From assembly GCF_023023025.1 (NCBI RefSeq), contig NZ_CP095481.1:124001-188000 (forward strand): a DNA stretch of 64,000 bases, in the 5' to 3' direction. Under the pieces are notes generated by a model that was not told the origin of the DNA, ran no database searches, and saw nothing but the letters and a program-made list of their open reading frames with translations. Numbering within the stretch: the stretch's first letter is position 1; each line of letters starts with the position of its first letter. Both the position numbers and the translations under genes were made by a program. Below are positions 5,573-61,349 of this stretch, in pieces. This DNA comes from Amycolatopsis sp. WQ 127309 (GTDB lineage: Bacteria; Actinomycetota; Actinomycetes; Mycobacteriales; Pseudonocardiaceae).

Positions 5573-6534
<962 letters not shown>

Positions 6535-14696: not shown

Positions 14697-14845
14697 GAGC
14701 GCCCCAATGTGGCGTTGGGTGCATCCAACGCACCCAACGTGGCGTTGGGTGCATCCAGCGCACCCAACGTGGCGTTCGGTGCACCCAACGCACCCAACGT
14801 GGCGTTCGGTGCGTCCAACGCACCCAACGCCACATTGGGGCGCTC
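14697..14845. repeat. four 30-bp tandem units enclosed in a 26-bp perfect inverted repeat
   Basis: Units start at 14709, 14739, 14769 and 14799 with period exactly 30; each carries GTTGGGTGC or a variant and GCACCCAAC, so each can form its own hairpin. The whole array is bracketed by exactly complementary 26-nt ends at 14697-14722 and 14820-14845 (outer sequence GAGCGCCCCAATGTGGCG and its complement). It starts 4 bp after the PHP stop. It may work as a composite terminator or be an unstable repeat element. No gene was identified in it. Confidence 0.85.
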
Positions 14846-36913: not shown

Positions 36914-36948
36914 AGTTCCTCCCTTTCCACCGGCCGCGCGGTAGCCAC

Positions 36949-37180
36949 GGATTTGTCCGCAGCTCGCGCAGTACTCGCTGAGTTGTCCGCAGGTCGCGCA
37001 CCAGTCGCAGGGTTGTCCGCAGGTCGCCCGGCACCCGCGGATTGTCCACAGCTCGTGCACTACTCGCGGAGTTGTCCGCTCATCGCCCAGTATCCGCAGA
37101 GTTGCCCATGGATCGTGTGACACCCGCGGAGTTGTCCACAGATCGCGCGGTACCCGCCGAGTTGTCCACAGATCGCCGAA
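36949..37180 (-). repeat. eight-unit 30-bp tandem array upstream of cobQ
   Basis: The TTGTCC core recurs at 36953, 36983, 37013, 37042, 37072, 37102 (as TTGCCC), 37132 and 37162, giving steps of 30, 30, 29, 30, 30, 30 and 30. On the minus strand the consensus is GTGGACAACTCCGCG followed by a variable half. The single 29-bp step breaks the reading frame shared by the other units. The motif is the same as in the 40046-40195 array. Confidence 0.85.
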
Positions 37181-37346
37181 CGGGGCTTGTGACCGGCCAC
37201 CGGCCGATAGACTGGACAGGGGCCGCCCCCCAGGGAGTGGTGGGGGCTGCCATCGCGAGCCCGAGGCCGATCCTGGACCTGACAGCCGCAGCCGCCGCTC
37301 GGCGACCAGCGCGGCCACGGCCGATCCCGGCGCTAATCGCGGCCAC
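37080..37346 (-). pseudogene. decayed linker ORF between cobD and cobQ
   Basis: A GTG at 37346 overlaps the last 14 nt of cobD and opens an 88-codon frame. Its second part reads MAAPTTPWGAAPVQSIGRWP and then repeats RSVDNSAG units before a TGA at 37080-37082. The peptide is close to that of the linker ORF at 39964-40218 (APTTPWGASPVQSTG, SPVRRSVDNSAG). Unlike that one it stops 166 bp before the downstream gene, and a 29-bp unit further on also shifts the frame, so I read it as decayed. Function is unknown. Confidence 0.4.
37208..37249 (-). repeat. interspersed 42-bp head sequence, copy C
   Basis: The minus strand reads CAGCCCCCACCACTCCCTGG and ends GTCCAGTCTA; it differs from copy B at 1 of 42 positions, and similarity to B continues for roughly another 50 bp into the first GTGGACAACT unit. 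It is oriented with cobD, about 84 bp past its stop. Confidence 0.88.
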
Positions 37347-37366
37347 GGCCGATCCCGACGCTGCCC
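37311..37366. repeat. 28-bp tandem duplication at the 3-prime end of cobD
   Basis: GCGGCCACGGCCGATCCCG occurs at 37311-37329 and 37339-37357 with period 28. The inner copy encodes the last residues of CobD (GIGRGRD); the outer copy lies beyond the stop. It parallels the duplication at the ROK gene end. Confidence 0.8.
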
Positions 37367-38301
37367 ACCACAGCCGCAGCCACAGTCAGCGCGGCCGCAC
37401 CCACCAGCCGGGACAACCGCACCGCCCGGCGCAGGTCGACCGGCTCCGGGTCACGTCCCTCGCCCAGCCGCGCCCGGCGCTCGACCTCGCCGCCGTAGCT
37501 GTTCGTGCCGCCCAGCCGGATGCCCAGCGCGCCCGCGAACGCCGCCTCCACCTGGCCCGCGTTGGGGCTCGGGTGGTGCCCGCCGTCGCGGCGCCAGATC
37601 CGCCAGGCCGTGTGCGCCCGGCCGCCGACGAGGGGCGCGCATACAGCCGTTAGCGCGGCTCCGAGGCGGGACGGGGCCAGGTTCACCAGGTCGTCGGCGC
37701 GCGCCGCCGCCCAGCCGAACTCCTGGTAGTGCGGTGAGCGGTAGCCGACCATCGCGTCGAGTGTGTTGAGCGCGCGGTAGCCGAGCAGGCCCGGCAGCCC
37801 GGCGACGGCGCCCCAGAACAGCGGCGCGACCACGGCGTCCGACGTGTTCTCGGCGATCGACTCGGTCGCCGCGCGGGTCAGCCCGGCGGAGTCGAGCGTC
37901 GTCGCGTCGCGCGCGCAGAGGTGCGAGAGCCGCATACGCGCCGAAGGGACTTCGCCCGCTTCGAGCAGCTTCGCCATCTCCGCGCCTTCGTCGGCGAGAC
38001 CACGTCCACCAAGCACCACCCACGTACAGACGGCAGTCGCCGCGAAGCGCGCGAAGGGACTTCGCCGCGTCACAGTCTGAAGCGCGGCGCCGAGGCCGAC
38101 AGCTGTGAAGGCGCTCAAACCCGCGTAGGCGGCTCCGCGCCGCTTCGAGTCGGCCCACACGCGGCGTTCGAGAGCCGCCGCGGCGGTACCGAAGATCGCC
38201 ACCGGATGCCCCCGACGGGGGTCGCCGAACAGGGTGTCGGCGACATATCCGGTAACGAGTCCGGCCGCGGTTGTCCCTAGACGGAGTGGCACGTGGCGCA
38301 C
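37333..38301 (-). CDS. cobD: adenosylcobinamide-phosphate synthase (CobD/CbiB)
   Basis: A 322-residue integral membrane enzyme that attaches the aminopropanol arm to adenosylcobyric acid. Recognisable segments are GYVADTLFGDPRRGHPVAIF, ARDATTLDSAGLTRAATESI, AENTSDAVVAPLFWGAVAGL, GYRALNTLDAMVGYRSPHY, FGWAAARADDLVNLAPSRLG and HPSPNAGQVEAAFAGALGIR, followed by GGTNSYGG. The GTG at 38301 (VRHVPLRLG) was chosen; a GTG at 38292 is possible. It is divergent from cobU with only about 18 bp between start codons, so transcripts are probably leaderless or promoters lie inside the coding regions. Confidence 0.93.
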   Translation of the reverse strand: MRHVPLRLGTTAAGLVTGYVADTLFGDPRRGHPVAIFGTAAAALERRVWADSKRRGAAYAGLSAFTAVGLGAALQTVTRRSPFARFAATAVCTWVVLGGRGLADEGAEMAKLLEAGEVPSARMRLSHLCARDATTLDSAGLTRAATESIAENTSDAVVAPLFWGAVAGLPGLLGYRALNTLDAMVGYRSPHYQEFGWAAARADDLVNLAPSRLGAALTAVCAPLVGGRAHTAWRIWRRDGGHHPSPNAGQVEAAFAGALGIRLGGTNSYGGEVERRARLGEGRDPEPVDLRRAVRLSRLVGAAALTVAAAVVGSVGIGRGRD

Positions 38302-38953: not shown

Positions 38954-39967
38954 GTGTTCGACGTACCCGTGCCTGATGCCACCGTCCGCGCCGCCGCGCA
39001 GGAGCGGCTCGACGGCCTGGTCAAGCCGCTCGGCTCGCTGGGCAGGCTCGAGGAGATCGCCGCCTGGCTGGCCGCGGCGCACGGCAGCGTGCCGCCGCGC
39101 CCCCTGGACGACGTCCGCGTCGTCGTCTTCGCGGGCGACCACGGCGTGTCCGCGCTGTCGGCGTACCCGCGCGAGGTGACCGCGGCGATGGTGCGGGTGT
39201 TCCTGGCCGGCAAGAGCGGCGTCAACGTGCTGGCCGCGCAGGTCGGCGCGCGGGTCCGGGTCGCCGACCTCGGCGTCGACTGGGACGGTTCGGACGTCCC
39301 GGCGGACGTGACGGCCCACAAGATCCGCCGCGGCTCGGGCTCGATCGACGTCGAGGACGCCTTGGAGCCGGGCGAAGCGCGGGCGGCTTTCGAGGCGGGC
39401 CGCGCGATCGCGGACGAAGAGCGCGAAGCGGACGTGCTCATCCCGGGTGACATGGGCATCGGCAACACGGCGATGTGCGCGGCCCTGGTCGCGGCGTCGC
39501 TGGGGTTGCCGGCGTCCGAGGTGGTCGGCACCGGAACCGGCGTCGACGCGGATGGCTTGGAGCGCAAGACGGCGGCGGTCTCGGCGGCGTTGACGCGGAC
39601 CGCGGGCCGGGTGGATGACCCGTTCGAGCGGCTGACGGCCCTGGGCAGCGCCTGCGTCGCGGCGACGGCGGGCTTCCTGGTCCAAGCGGCGGTCCGCGGT
39701 ATCCCGGTGGTCCTGGACGGCGTGTTCTCGGGCGCGGCGGCCCTGGTGGCGCGGGACATCGCGCCGGGGGCGGAGCAGTGGTGGCTGGCCGGGCACCGCT
39801 CGACGGAACCGTCGCAGGCGTTCGCGCTGAAGGCGCTGGGCTTGGAACCGATCCTGGACTTCGGGCTTCGCCTGGGCGAAGGCAGCGGCGCGGTGCAGGC
39901 GATCCCGACGCTGCGCGCGGCCCGCGCGATCATCGCGGACATGGGCCTGCTGGCGGACTTGGCGTGA
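38954..39967 (+). CDS. cobT: nicotinate-nucleotide-dimethylbenzimidazole phosphoribosyltransferase
   Basis: A 337-residue enzyme that makes alpha-ribazole phosphate from dimethylbenzimidazole and nicotinate mononucleotide. Family motifs are RLDGLVKPLGSLGRLEEIAA, VVFAGDHGVSALSAYPREVT, LIPGDMGIGNTAMCAALVAA, EVVGTGTGVDADGLERK and LDGVFSGAAALVA, with the late LGLEPILDFGLRLGEGSGA. The GTG at 38954 has GGAGG at good distance. Its TGA overlaps the GTG of a repeat-bearing small ORF that bridges to cobS. Confidence 0.95.
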   Translation: MFDVPVPDATVRAAAQERLDGLVKPLGSLGRLEEIAAWLAAAHGSVPPRPLDDVRVVVFAGDHGVSALSAYPREVTAAMVRVFLAGKSGVNVLAAQVGARVRVADLGVDWDGSDVPADVTAHKIRRGSGSIDVEDALEPGEARAAFEAGRAIADEEREADVLIPGDMGIGNTAMCAALVAASLGLPASEVVGTGTGVDADGLERKTAAVSAALTRTAGRVDDPFERLTALGSACVAATAGFLVQAAVRGIPVVLDGVFSGAAALVARDIAPGAEQWWLAGHRSTEPSQAFALKALGLEPILDFGLRLGEGSGAVQAIPTLRAARAIIADMGLLADLA

Positions 39968-40218
39968 ACGCAGCCCCCACCACTCCCTGGGGGGCGTCCC
40001 CTGTCCAGTCTACCGGCGGGTGGCCGGTCGGAAGCCCCGTTCGGCGATCTGTGGACAACTCCGCCGGTGCCGACGCACCTGTGGACAACTCTGCCGGTTC
40101 CGGCCGAGCGGATGGCAACTCCGCCGATCTGGGCCGAGCGGACCGCAACTCCGCCAACGCGGACCGAGCCCAGGACAACCCCACCGGCCGCGGCCGGACC
40201 GCGGGCGAGCCGACGTGA
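39964..40218 (+). CDS. repeat-bearing linker ORF bridging cobT and cobS
   Basis: An 84-codon frame whose GTG overlaps the cobT stop (GTGA at 39964-39967) and whose TGA overlaps the cobS GTG (GTGA at 40215-40218). It begins VNAAPTTPWGASPVQSTGGW and then runs through five 10-residue repeats: VDNSAGADAP, VDNSAGSGRA, DGNSADLGRA, DRNSANADRA, QDNPTGRGRT. There is no ribosome binding site of its own other than coupling. Third-position GC looks lower than in the neighbours. Whether the peptide matters, or only ribosome passage to cobS, is unknown. A non-coding reading is possible. Confidence 0.45.
   Translation: MNAAPTTPWGASPVQSTGGWPVGSPVRRSVDNSAGADAPVDNSAGSGRADGNSADLGRADRNSANADRAQDNPTGRGRTAGEPT
39971..40012 (+). 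repeat. interspersed 42-bp head sequence, copy B
   Basis: Begins CAGCCCCCACCACTCCCTGG and ends GTCCAGTCTA, starting 4 bp after the cobT stop. It differs from copy C at 1 and copy A at 2 positions. It encodes the APTTPWGASPVQS part of the linker ORF and is followed by the 30-bp array. Confidence 0.88.
40046..40195 (+). repeat. five-unit 30-bp tandem array between cobT and cobS
   Basis: GTGGACAACTC or degenerate forms start at 40051, 40081, 40111, 40141 and 40171, exactly 30 bp apart. The second half of each unit varies. It is the plus-strand version of the array upstream of cobQ. Confidence 0.88.
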
Positions 40219-46949: not shown

Positions 46950-48158
46950 GTGCGCGAAAAATCACGTCGACCTGCAACGGGACCCGGGGATTCCGACGAC
47001 GTCCCACCGCGGAGCCCACGACGCCTGACGGTGGTCGGGATCGGCGCCGACGGCTGGCCCGGGCTCTCGGAACAAGCCCAGGCCCTCGTCCTCGGCGCCG
47101 ACGTCGTCGTCGGCGCGCCGCGGCAGCTGGGGTACCTGCCCGCGGAGGTGCCGGCGGTGCCGTGGCCTTCGCCGTTGCTGCCCGGTCTGGACGCGCTGCT
47201 CGCCGAGCACGACGGCCACCGCGTGTGCGTCCTGGCCAGCGGAGATCCGTTTTTGTCGGGGGTGGGTTCTACTCTGGTGGCTCATGGATACGAGGTCGAG
47301 GCGCTGCCCGCGCTCTCGTCGGTGACACTGGCCCGGGCCCGGCTGGGCTGGTCCGCCGAGGAGACCGAGGTGGTGACCCTCGTCGGCCGATCGTCGGCGC
47401 GCGCGGCCCGGGTGCTCGCGCCGCGCCGGCGGGTGCTCGTCCTGGGTGCCGACGCGGCGGCTCTGCGCTCCCTGCTCACCGTGCGGGGTTATGGCGAGAG
47501 CGAGCTGTTCGCGCTGGAGAACCTGGGCGGGCCCGAAGAGCGCATCTTCGACGGCTGGACCGGCGATCCCGGTCCGCTGACGGTGTTCGCGCTGGAGTGC
47601 ACCGGCCCGGCGCTGCCCCTGATCGGCATCCCGGACGACGTGTACGCCCACGACGGCCAGCTGACGAAGCGCGACCTGCGGGTCTCGGCGCTGGCCCGCC
47701 TCGCCCCGAGCCCCGGCGACCTGCTGTGGGACGTCGGGGCGGGCGCGGGCAGCGTCGGCATCGAATGGTCGCGGATGCACGCGATGAACCGCTCGATCGC
47801 GATCGAGCGAGATCCCGAACGCGCCGAGCGGATCGGCCGCAACGCGGTCGACCTGGGAGTACCGGAACTGGAGGTGGTGACCGGAGAAGCACCCGACGCG
47901 CTGAGCGCGCTGCCCGCGCCGGACGCCGTCTTCATCGGAGGCGGCGTCACGGTGCCGGGTGTACTGGACGCGTGCCTGACCACGGGCGCGCGAGTGGTGG
48001 CGCACGGAGTCACCCTGGAGGCCGAGCAGGTCCTGGCCCGGGCGTACGAGCAGCACGGGGGTGAGCTGCTGCGGATCGCGGTCGAGCGGGCCGCCCCGCT
48101 GGGCGGCTTCACCGGCTGGACGCCGGCGCGGACCGTGACGCAATGGAGCAGCCGATGA
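46950..48158 (+). CDS. cobL: precorrin-6Y C5,15-methyltransferase, decarboxylating (CbiE-CbiT fusion)
   Basis: A 402-residue fusion. The N-terminal half is a canonical SAM-binding CbiE methyltransferase (LTVVGIGADGWPGLSEQAQA, CVLASGDPFLSGVGSTLV); the C-terminal half is a CbiT class-I methyltransferase (LLWDVGAGAGSVGIEWSRM, AVFIGGGVTVPGVLDACL). It methylates C5 and C15 and decarboxylates the C12 acetate. The GTG at 46950 begins VREKSRRPATGPG, with a poorly conserved 25-residue leader. Its TGA overlaps the ATG of a repeat-bearing linker ORF. Confidence 0.94.
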   Translation: MREKSRRPATGPGDSDDVPPRSPRRLTVVGIGADGWPGLSEQAQALVLGADVVVGAPRQLGYLPAEVPAVPWPSPLLPGLDALLAEHDGHRVCVLASGDPFLSGVGSTLVAHGYEVEALPALSSVTLARARLGWSAEETEVVTLVGRSSARAARVLAPRRRVLVLGADAAALRSLLTVRGYGESELFALENLGGPEERIFDGWTGDPGPLTVFALECTGPALPLIGIPDDVYAHDGQLTKRDLRVSALARLAPSPGDLLWDVGAGAGSVGIEWSRMHAMNRSIAIERDPERAERIGRNAVDLGVPELEVVTGEAPDALSALPAPDAVFIGGGVTVPGVLDACLTTGARVVAHGVTLEAEQVLARAYEQHGGELLRIAVERAAPLGGFTGWTPARTVTQWSSR

Positions 48159-48490
48159 CCGGCCGTGCCACGGCGGCAGCCACGGCCGCGGCCCGCACCC
48201 GCGGCGCACGGCGAATGTCTGGCCGCGCCACCGCGGCTCGTGCCCACGGCGCACGGCGAACGACCGGTTGCACCACAGCAGCCCGCGGCTGCGGGCGAGG
48301 GCCATCGACCGGCCACGCCATCTCGGTCCGTGCCCGCGTCGCGCGGCGGCCGTCGTGCCACGCCGCCTCGGTCGGTGCCTACAGCGCACCGCGACCGTCC
48401 GGCCGCGCCGCCTCGGTCCGCACCCACGACGCACGACGAACGTCCGGCCGCGCCACTGCGGCCCGCACCCTGGGGAGCAGCCGATGACCG
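48145..48490 (+). repeat. 45-bp tandem array flanked by a 17-bp direct repeat, between cobL and cobM
   Basis: Units start at 48217, 48262, 48307, 48352, 48397 and 48442 (last one partial) with period exactly 45, preceded by a 60-bp unit at 48157-48216 (45 plus 15). GGAGCAGCCGATGACCG, which spans ribosome binding site and start codon, occurs at 48145-48161 and again at 48474-48490. Without the array, cobL and cobM would overlap by 4 nt. Confidence 0.88.
48155..48487 (+). CDS. repeat-bearing linker ORF bridging cobL and cobM
   Basis: A 110-codon frame whose ATG overlaps the cobL stop (ATGA) and whose TGA overlaps the cobM ATG (ATGA). It consists of 15-residue repeats rich in Arg, Ala and Thr, for example SGRATAARAHGARRT and GRAASVRTHDARRTS. 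GGAGCAG precedes the ATG. It is in a different frame from cobM, so it is not an extension of it. No family is recognised. It may serve only to carry ribosomes across an expanded repeat, or may not be translated at all. Confidence 0.45.
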   Translation: MTGRATAAATAAARTRGARRMSGRATAARAHGARRTTGCTTAARGCGRGPSTGHAISVRARVARRPSCHAASVGAYSAPRPSGRAASVRTHDARRTSGRATAARTLGSSR

Positions 48491-49245
48491 TGTACTTCGT
48501 CGGTGCCGGCCCCGGGGCCGCGGACCTGATCACCGTGCGCGGGCGTGACCTGCTGGCTCGCTGCGGCGGCTGCCTCTACCCCGGCAGCATGACGCCCACC
48601 GACCTGCTCGCGTACTGCCCGCCGTCCGCGGAGCTGGTGGACACGGCGAACCTCAGCCTGGTGGAGATCGTCGAGAAGCTGGTCCACGGGCACCGGGCCG
48701 GGCACGATGTCGTCCGGTTGTGCTCTGGCGACCCGTCGCTCTACAGCGCCGTCGCCGAGCAAGCGCGGCGCCTCGACGCCGCCGGCGTGCCGTACGAGGT
48801 CGTGCCCGGCGTGCCCGCCTTCGCGGCGTCGGCCGCGGTGCTCGGGCGGGAGCTGACCGTGCCGGCGGTCGGGCAGAGCCTGATCATCACGCGCGTGCAG
48901 GCCCGCTCGACCGCGATGCCGCCGGGCGAGACGCTGGCCGCGTTCGCCGCCACCGGGGCGACCCTCGCGCTGCACCTGGCGATCAACCACGTCGAACGGG
49001 TCACCGGCGAGCTCGCCCCGCACTACGGCGCCGACTGCCCGGTCGCCGTCGTGGCGCTCGCGAGCCAGCCCGGCGAAACCGTCGTGCGCGGGGTGCTCGG
49101 CGAACTCCCGCAGCTGGTCCGCGCGGCCGGGATGACGCGGGCGGCGACCATCTTCGTCGGCCGGGTGCTCGCCGCGGCCGGGTTTCCGGACAGCTTCCTC
49201 TATTCCAGTGCCCGCGACCGGGCGAACCAACCGGAGTCGTTGTGA
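48484..49245 (+). CDS. cobM: precorrin-4 C11-methyltransferase
   Basis: A 253-residue SAM-dependent methyltransferase, MTVYFVGAGPGAADLITVRG at the N-terminus, with CLYPGSMTPTDLLAYCP, VRLCSGDPSLYSAVAEQA, VVPGVPAFAASAAVLGRELT and ATLALHLAINHVERV, all typical of CobM/CbiF. It methylates C11 of precorrin-4. The ATG at 48484 follows GGAGCAG, part of the 17-bp direct repeat. Its stop overlaps the next GTG by 4 nt. Confidence 0.95.
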   Translation: MTVYFVGAGPGAADLITVRGRDLLARCGGCLYPGSMTPTDLLAYCPPSAELVDTANLSLVEIVEKLVHGHRAGHDVVRLCSGDPSLYSAVAEQARRLDAAGVPYEVVPGVPAFAASAAVLGRELTVPAVGQSLIITRVQARSTAMPPGETLAAFAATGATLALHLAINHVERVTGELAPHYGADCPVAVVALASQPGETVVRGVLGELPQLVRAAGMTRAATIFVGRVLAAAGFPDSFLYSSARDRANQPESL

Positions 49246-54813: not shown

Positions 54814-56301
54814 TCAGTAGCTGCGGGGCGTCCAGACGATGCCGTTCTCCGCGCGGGTGCGGGACGAGCCCACGATCAGCAGGCAGCGCATGTCCACAGT
54901 GGACGGGTCCAGCTCGCCCAGCGTCGTGATCCGGACGTCCTCCTCCGGGCCGCCGACGTCCCGCGCCACCACGACCGGAGTCGACGGCGAGCGGTGCCGC
55001 AGCAAGACAGAGCGGGCGTCCGCGAGCTGGGTCGTACGAGTCCGCGAAGCCGGGTTGTACAGCGCCAGCACCAGATCCGCCGCGCCGGCCGCGTCCAAGC
55101 GCTTCTCGATGATCTCCCACGGCTTCAACCGATCCGACAGCGAGAGCACGCAGTAGTCGTGCCCCAGCGGCGCGCCGACCCGGGACGCCGCCGCCTGGGC
55201 CGCCGTCACGCCCGGGACGATCCGGACCCGGACGCCCGCGCCGTGACCCGAAGACACCTGCTCCAGCACCGCCGACGCCATCGCGAACACCCCCGGATCG
55301 CCCGAGGAGACCACGGCCACGCGAGCGCCGGAAGCGGCCAGCGACAACGCCTCCACCGCGCGGTCCGCCTCGACCCGGTTGCCCGACGCGTGCCGCTGCT
55401 GCCCGGCCTTCTGCGGCACCCGCGCGACGTACGGGCCGTACCCGACGATGTGTTCCGCCGCCTCCAGTTCGGCCGAGGCCTCCGGCGTCAGCCACTCCGG
55501 ACCGGCGGGCCCCAGCCCGACCACGACGACCTCGCCGGTGGCCGTCGAAGGAACCGGAGCGACCGCGGTAGCCTGACGAGACGCGTAAGCCGGCGAAGGC
55601 AGCAACGCCAGCGAGAAGTACGGCACCGAAGCGGGATCCACCGAAGCCAACGGCGAAATCCGCTGCTCCCCCCACGTCGCGCGCTCGATGTAGAACGCGT
55701 CGTCGAGCTTCCCGGCCTCCGCCAGCGCCTCCCGCACCGAACCGAACGTGCGTCCCAGCTTCACCACCGCCGCCGCGTCGGTGTCCGCGAGACGCCGGGC
55801 CAGTTCCGGCGCGGGCAGGGTGCCCGGCAGGATCGTCAGGACCTCGTCGCGCTGGACCAGCGGGCGGCCGAGCACCGACGACGCCGCGCTCACCGACGTC
55901 ACCCCCGGCACGACCACGGCGGCGAACCGGCCGGAAAGCCGTTCGTGCATGTACATGTACGAGCCGTAGAAGAACGGATCGCCTTCGCAGAGCACCACGA
56001 CGTCGCGGCCCGCGTCCAGGTGCTCGGCGAGCCGTTTCGCGCTCAGCTCGTAGAAGTCCGCGATCGCGCCCTCGTAGCCGCCGGGGTGGTCGGTCGTCTC
56101 GGTCGTGACCGGGTAGACGAGCTTCTCCTCGATCTGCCCCGCACGCAGGTACGGCTCGGCCACCGACCGCGCGATGCTCCGGCCGTGCCGCGCGCTGTGG
56201 TACGCGATCACCGCGGCTTCCGAGATCAGCCGCGCGGCCTTGACCGTCATGAGTTCCGGGTCGCCGGGGCCGAGCCCGACGCCGTACAGCGTGCCGGTCA
56301 T
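54814..56301 (-). CDS. cobIJ: fused precorrin-2 C20- and precorrin-3B C17-methyltransferase
   Basis: A 495-residue fusion of two SAM-dependent methyltransferases. The N-terminal half is CobI-like ([59 protein letters not shown]); from about residue 260 the CobJ half follows ([60 protein letters not shown]). This order matches the CobIJ fusion known from mycobacteria. It makes precorrin-3A and precorrin-4. The ATG overlaps the cobH stop (ATGA). Confidence 0.95.
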
Positions 56302-56921
56302 TCTTCGGTGCTCGCCAACGCGTTGATCGCGGCGACGGCCATCGCGCTGCCGCCACGACGTCCGTGCACCACCAGGTACGGCGCGGGTGCCCGCTTCGCC
56401 AGCTCTACTTTGGACTCCGCCGCGCCGACGAACCCGACCGGCACGCCGATGATCGCCGCCGGCGCTCCGGCGCCTTCGTCCAGGATCTCCAGCAAGCGGA
56501 ACAGCGCGGTCGGCGCGTTGCCGATCGCCACGACCGAGCCGGGCAGCTTGTCACGCCACAGTTCCAAGGCCGCCGCCGAACGCGTCGTGCCCATCCGCTC
56601 GGCGAGGCCGGGCACGCTGGGGTCCGACAGCGTGCAGACGACTTCGTTGCCCGCGGGCAGGCGACGCCGGGTGACGCCGCTGGCGATCATCTGCGCGTCG
56701 CACAGGATCGGCGCGCCCGCCTCCAGCGCGGCACGGCCGGACTCGACGACGTCGAGGGTGTACCGCACGTCGTCGACCAGATCGACCATGCCGCAGGCGT
56801 GGATCATCCGGACCGCCAGGCCGGCCACGTCGTCGGGCAGGATCGCCAGGTCCGCTTCCTCGCGGATCGTGGCGAACGAGTGCCGGTAGATCTCGGCACC
56901 GTCCCGCAGGTAGTCGATCAC
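56298..56921 (-). CDS. cobH: precorrin-8X methylmutase
   Basis: A 207-residue enzyme that moves the C11 methyl group to C12, giving hydrogenobyrinic acid. The catalytic His is His41 in [20 protein letters not shown]; also typical are [29 protein letters not shown] and [20 protein letters not shown]. The GTG at 56921 overlaps the cobG stop (GTGA) and has AAAGGA before it. It sits in the cobG-cobH-cobIJ operon. Confidence 0.95.
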
Positions 56922-61251: not shown

Positions 61252-61349
61252 GCGTCGGCAGGTGGAGGAACCCGGTGAGAGTCCGGGGCGGTCCCGCCAC
61301 TGTCACCGGAGAGCCCGCTCTCCGGGAAGCCAGGAACTCCGGCCGGCGC
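61252..61349 (+). ncRNA. cobalamin riboswitch controlling cobN
   Basis: The core elements appear in order: GGTGAGAGTCC (61274 onward), CCGCCACTGTCACC, an extended hairpin GGAGAGC/GCTCTCC, and GGGAAGCCAGGAACTCC. The outer helix can pair GCGTCGG (61252-61258) with CCGGCGC (61343-61349) with one G-U pair. About 40 nt separate it from the cobN GTG, and that stretch contains further stems. Cobalamin should lower cobN expression. Confidence 0.93.

Follow-up and report, generated by a model that had tools for sequence, protein, structure and literature searches.

Why should cobL and cobM, two vitamin B12 genes of the soil dweller Amycolatopsis sp. WQ 127309, be held apart by an array of short repeats that forms a single open reading frame (ORF), beginning on the stop codon of the first gene and ending on the start codon of the second? 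The host genome is a single contig of 11.13 Mb, and the window analysed here is a 64,000-nucleotide stretch of it, in which the junction is organised as follows.

46950..48158, plus strand: cobL, the upstream gene, with CbiE and CbiT domains; stop codon TGA at 48156-48158
48145..48161, plus strand: left copy of the 17-bp junction repeat, GGAGCAGCCGATGACCG, with an SD-like GGAG and the start/stop overlap ATGA
48155..48487, plus strand: bridging (linker) ORF of 110 codons, starting on the cobL stop and stopping on the cobM start
48155..48214, plus strand: first unit, 60 bp (20 codons)
48215..48484, plus strand: six 45-bp (15-codon) units, the last ended by the right junction copy
48474..48490, plus strand: right copy of the 17-bp junction repeat, with an SD-like GGAG and the cobM start
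48484..49245, plus strand: cobM, the downstream gene

The cobL-cobM junction

The linker between cobL and cobM is 330 nt long. At its left end the ATGA at 48155-48158 superimposes an ATG (48155-48157) on the TGA of cobL, opening a frame of 110 codons, and at its right end the ATGA at 48484-48487 superimposes the cobM ATG (48484-48486) on the linker TGA (48485-48487). Both ends thus carry the stop/start overlap of termination-reinitiation pairs, and both have the ATGA of the MIRU type of coupling, at -4 nt to the downstream gene. An upstream ATG in this frame lies at 48143, within cobL. The initial annotation, made from this DNA alone, had described both overlaps, the 60-bp unit, the exact 45-bp units and the terminal 17-bp repeats, all of which are confirmed to the base; its count of about 5.5 units of 45 bp fell short, because the sixth unit ends in the junction copy, but the period stands. 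Tandem Repeats Finder (TRF) gives a period of 45, 6.3 copies, 70% matches and a score of 211, and the self-identity of the linker reaches 0.632 at lag 45, whereas 500 single-base shuffles gave at most 0.466 over lags 5-169.

In cobL the CbiE and CbiT domains score above the curated cut-offs, and the Pfam model TP_methylase is above its cut-off in both genes; cobM scores 259.2 bits against cobM_cbiF, slightly below the cut-off of 259.65. The sole Rfam match in the window at gathering score is a cobalamin riboswitch at 61265-61339 (plus strand), which is not upstream of cobL.

Conservation of the path in Amycolatopsis

Among 80 genomes of the genus, cobM was found in 78 at E<=1e-80, and each of these 78 gave a readable junction. 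The 4-nt overlap of cobL and cobM is still present in 56 of them, bearing out the proposal that an ancestral overlap of this kind had been opened. The other 22 have a spacer, with offsets from 16 to 401 nt. We call a spacer bridged when a start overlaps the upstream stop and the path from it ends in a stop that overlaps the downstream start; 21 of the 22 are bridged, 19 of them by one ORF and the remaining two, in L063 and L072, by a series of two ORFs. The sole unbridged case (L108) has an offset of 16 behind a TAG stop and belongs to the most distant genome, 64% identical in CobM. In the nearest relative (G098, 95% identical in CobM) the offset is 401 nt, compared with 329 in the window, and the ends of the spacer resemble the window's. 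The comparison of frames in relatives that had been suggested as a check thus shows length and content to vary while a path from stop to start is nearly always kept.

A tree of cobL and cobM requires at least nine changes between overlap and spacer, five of which are demanded by branches with good support, and does not separate spacer gain from spacer loss. The window's clade comprises 28 species, 17 of which have spacers, and many of the right ends are alike. A single old insertion, followed by rapid internal turnover and by clean losses between the direct repeats on repeated occasions, is therefore as possible as many gains, and since the species of this clade are related and similar at their right ends, there have been fewer independent insertions than there are spacers. 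On either history, many changes of length have kept the path.

Outside the genus, five of nine cobL-cobM spacers longer than 30 nt are bridged (L157, L177, L179 and L182, and L186 with three ORFs); those of L141, L156, L172 and L183 are unbridged. In two Phytoactinopolyspora species (L141 and L146) CobM is 73-75% identical to that of the window, as close as in many Amycolatopsis, perhaps through transfer.

A second bridged junction, cobT-cobS

Nineteen families of overlapping gene pairs were searched in the fetched loci, two families that resemble shadow ORFs being omitted and four left out for another gene order, short gaps or misplaced starts; one path (L131), which ends on GTAG, was excluded from the bridge count. 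The pair cobT-cobS behaves like cobL-cobM, and the window has its own example.

39964..40218, plus strand: second bridging ORF, 84 codons, between cobT and cobS, with GTGA at 39964-39967 and at 40215-40218

The spacer here has an offset of 251 and 30-bp repeats. For cobS we used whichever start codon was closest to the aligned N-terminus, chosen blind to bridging, and on this basis the 78 genus genomes with cobS divide into 34 with the overlap, 33 with a bridged spacer and 11 others. Offsets of the bridged spacers run from 56 to 1002 nt, and four are chains (L230, L236, L241 and L255), the longest of all being L255 (genome G071), where 1002 nt are covered by a relay of 315, 7 and 13 codons. 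The 11 others are eight junctions with offsets of -8 to 14 nt and three unbridged spacers (L270, L298 and L300).

The repeats themselves are not peculiar to the junction. The first ~50 bp of the window's cobT-cobS spacer are found again at about 30 sites across the genome, and an intergenic 30-bp array of 4.2 copies at 14703-14829 of the window has a unit closely like the cobT-cobS linker units of L225, L241 and L263, implying that the period of 30 belongs to a repeat family and not to the reading frame.

What is conserved at the two junctions

Taking both junctions together, 53 of 56 spacers longer than 30 nt are bridged (47 by one ORF, five by two and one by three), which strongly supports the core of the initial suggestion, that a readable path to the downstream gene had been kept. 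The number expected is 21.8 if lengths alone are jittered, by deletion of 0-2 random bases, and 12.8 if the sequence is shuffled as well. The single-ORF spacers contain no stop in the bridging frame, compared with 44 and 34 in the other two (3582 codons per frame). Reading from register +2 reaches the start in only 7 of the 56; register +1 is degenerate, landing on the stop itself, and hence provides no control. When the spacers are clustered by sequence at a loose threshold they form 15 cobL-cobM and 18 cobT-cobS clusters, and as the three unbridged spacers are singletons, 30 of the 33 clusters are bridged (P about 7e-10 at 0.39 per cluster).

Could the array be open and in frame simply by chance? 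For the window's cobL-cobM spacer alone the two nulls give 0.22 and 0.28, and arbitrary genomic spacers pass at 10-16%, so that a single locus could still be due to chance. As a general account chance is refuted by the 53 spacers and 30 clusters that pass at the two junctions, and as an explanation of the array it can practically be dismissed.

The form that the constraint takes differs from the one first proposed, in which only expansions in steps of 15 nt would have kept a single frame. Only 14 of the 56 spacers have an offset that, with one added, is a multiple of 15, and repeat periods of 12, 24, 36, 42 and 48 also occur in them, so that 15-nt steps are rejected as a rule. Nor is a single frame required, since six bridged spacers (two at cobL-cobM and four at cobT-cobS) are chains of two or three ORFs. 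All seven internal hand-overs in these six relays are NTGA, so that what is kept is the hand-over, with no need for a length that three divides. All of the bridged cases are fitted by an unbroken relay with NTGA at its joints.

Spacer content

In content, low-complexity, GC-rich arrays stand at one extreme of the spacers and repeat families found elsewhere in the genus at the other, and the linker peptides differ from species to species. A functional repeat peptide might be expected from 110 open codons that encode 15-residue repeats, and would be a quite different reason for keeping the frame. We regard this as very improbable, and reject it as a candidate. At E<=0.001 neither NCBIfam nor Pfam has a model that matches the linker, and no protein homolog was found at E<=1e-5. 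Its composition by codon position is not gene-like, with G+C of 0.71/0.87/0.79 compared with 0.75/0.53/0.95 in cobM. Substitutions in aligned spacer pairs are without third-position bias, although the alignments are unreliable in the more diverged pairs, including that of the window with G098, and for this reason indel lengths were left out as evidence.

An origin of the linker from a dispersed element was likewise rejected. No further copy was found in its own genome at E<=1e-3 (the best match has E 0.0017 over 49 bp), and the only match in the genus at E<=1e-8, with nine first-look candidates scored per genome, is the spacer of G098. A special RNA structure was also considered; the fold predicted for the linker RNA, -194 kcal/mol for 362 nt, is no stronger than that of shuffles (z 0.91), and this candidate too was rejected.

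Limits of bridging

Bridging is local to certain junctions. We scanned 1.26 Mb of the host genome with a rough, purpose-made gene finder for co-directional spacers of 35-600 nt, and found bridges after 12 of 75 NTGA stops (two of them the window's own), 16 of 107 CTGA stops and 6 of 57 TAA or TAG stops. In this single-genome scan there is no excess after NTGA compared with stops that are unable to couple, and a genome-wide bridging rule was rejected. When the window's genome was compared with that of G098, 44 of 211 co-directional pairs could be located, nine of which differ in spacing. Both genomes have a bridge at cobT-cobS and at cobL-cobM, and the other seven pairs are not bridged; one of these seven, a non-cob pair, has an overlap in the window's genome and an unbridged gap of 53 nt in G098.

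A third cob junction, cobD-cobQ, has the overlap in 9 of 14 contigs, and two of its five spacers are bridged. The three unbridged spacers, the window's included, follow a TAG stop. The window's spacer (36914-37368, minus strand) is unbridged behind the TAG of cobD even though it contains, besides a 30-bp array, 185 bp that are an 83% copy of the cobT-cobS spacer and have the same orientation with respect to the genes.

A dispersed 38-bp unit with its own relay

The pair trpB-trpA was read as a control in the 30 best-scoring loci. The genes overlap in 28 of these; of the other two loci, L397 lacks an aligned overlap and L404, from genome G022, has a spacer of 114 nt that is built of a different kind of repeat.

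L404:2257-2370, minus strand: trpB-trpA relay of three 38-bp units
L203, near 5825-5863: relay site of the 38-bp unit

In L404 an ATGA opens each unit and a GGAGG closes it, a few bases ahead of the following unit, so that the spacer reads as a relay of three ORFs of 13 codons. The unit has four more matching places in G022, and at E<=1e-5 it is matched in 58 of the 80 genus genomes, many of the matches being short; it is not found in the window's linkers, where the best alignment has 18 of 38 matches. Of eight sites that were read, four (trpB-trpA, L428, L430 and cobH-cobI of G005) carry a relay that leads from an upstream stop into a long open frame downstream, with ORFs of 13-14 codons at operon junctions. 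At cobH-cobI of G005, where cobH was assigned by homology to window 56301-56921, one unit lies exactly at the overlap, and the window and two relatives have the empty site. The four sites without a relay are matches in L193, L200 and L205 and a form in L429 (near 1493-1640) that lies inside a long open frame, has a period of 39 and carries ATCA in place of ATGA, as if adapted to stay in frame. In its logic, this unit looks like a MIRU analogue in Amycolatopsis.

Proposed mechanism

Comparison of these sequences makes it probable that the array is a spacer tolerated by virtue of carrying its own bridge. Ribosomes that end cobL at the first ATGA would restart on the overlapping ATG, read the 110 repeat codons and stop at the second ATGA, where a second restart would place them on cobM; two hand-overs would thus replace the one of the ancestral 4-nt overlap. 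The spacer probably originated as DNA captured with a duplication of the junction, which then grew and changed through tandem duplication and loss, with bridged states alone surviving. Translation of the linker, reinitiation as the route and selection against broken paths are all inferred here from the sequence patterns. Termination-reinitiation itself has been tested for overlapping gene pairs in Haloferax and E. coli, according to Huber et al. (2019, PMC6728339).

The two downstream genes may differ in how far they depend on this delivery. An SD-like sequence is scarce before cobS (3 of 36 genomes with a spacer and 1 of 34 with the overlap), which therefore seems to depend on a delivered ribosome, even at distances of up to 1 kb from cobT. 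In front of cobM it is kept in 19 of 20 spacer genomes and in all 56 overlap genomes, and cobM might start independently.

The main rival to a self-bridging spacer is that the linker is translated merely to cover GC-rich RNA, either against Rho polarity or against a hairpin over the cobM ribosome site, so that an exact hand-over would be unneeded. Rho-dependent polarity on untranslated RNA is established (PMC12548453), and the linker RNA, whose predicted fold is given above, is strongly paired in absolute terms. This explanation accounts for the open frame but less well for the exact landing. A frame running past the cobM start would cover the RNA equally, yet 53 of the 56 spacers end exactly on the start; the ORF relays end on NTGA at every step; and the pairing is not above that of shuffles. 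We consider it unlikely.

A further proposal made for this locus is that the number of units adjusts how strongly cobM and the genes that follow are expressed, as a VNTR rheostat. Spacer length and repeat content do vary between species, as the difference between G098 and the window illustrates, but many species manage without any spacer, and tuning would add to bridging and not replace it. We consider such a role improbable.

Implications

We suggest, as a view we hold about evenly balanced between right and wrong, that the 4-nt overlap at certain actinobacterial operon junctions is an evolvable slot. It could take up DNA of nearly any content and length, which would last only as an NTGA-joined relay of ORFs and would otherwise be free to grow, be lost or be replaced; the 38-bp unit would be a dispersed cassette of Amycolatopsis' own that is suited to this slot. 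The junctions cobL-cobM and cobT-cobS provide a natural experiment on translational coupling, in which dozens of dissimilar spacers reveal what is required of an inserted sequence if it is to be kept, and in which the relays of two or three ORFs tell ribosome hand-over at NTGA apart from a length that is a multiple of three. Both offer a comparative test of whether coupling is important, in nature, in GC-rich operons. They also carry a warning, that short repeat ORFs within operons may be relays and not protein genes.

Comparison with known systems

No description of such bridged spacers was found for Amycolatopsis or Streptomyces in the open-licence literature searched. The initial annotation knew of no described system of this kind, but the MIRUs of mycobacteria are a precedent. 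As described in PMC12548453, citing Supply et al. 1997, these are mobile repeats that insert at start codons and carry an ORF coupled at -4 nt, which is thought to soften what the insertion does to expression. Copy number varies at some MIRU loci (VNTR; PMC4128351). The cobL-cobM linker is like a MIRU, so described, in being a repeat at a gene junction with an ORF coupled downstream at -4 nt. It differs in that its contents change between species and that it is not dispersed, and for the latter reason we do not file it as a MIRU. In logic, the 38-bp unit comes closer to a MIRU than the window's linker does.

Two other systems share parts of the arrangement. The ATGA gene pairs that use termination-reinitiation (PMC6728339) have the same hand-over, which in the linker occurs twice in series; these pairs couple two genes directly, whereas cobL-cobM has an extra, fast-changing ORF between. 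Short upstream ORFs, in the account of PMC12548453, deliver ribosomes to the gene to which they are coupled, and resemble the linker in that their role is ascribed to being translated and not to the peptide. Unlike them, the linker is fed by an upstream gene within the operon.
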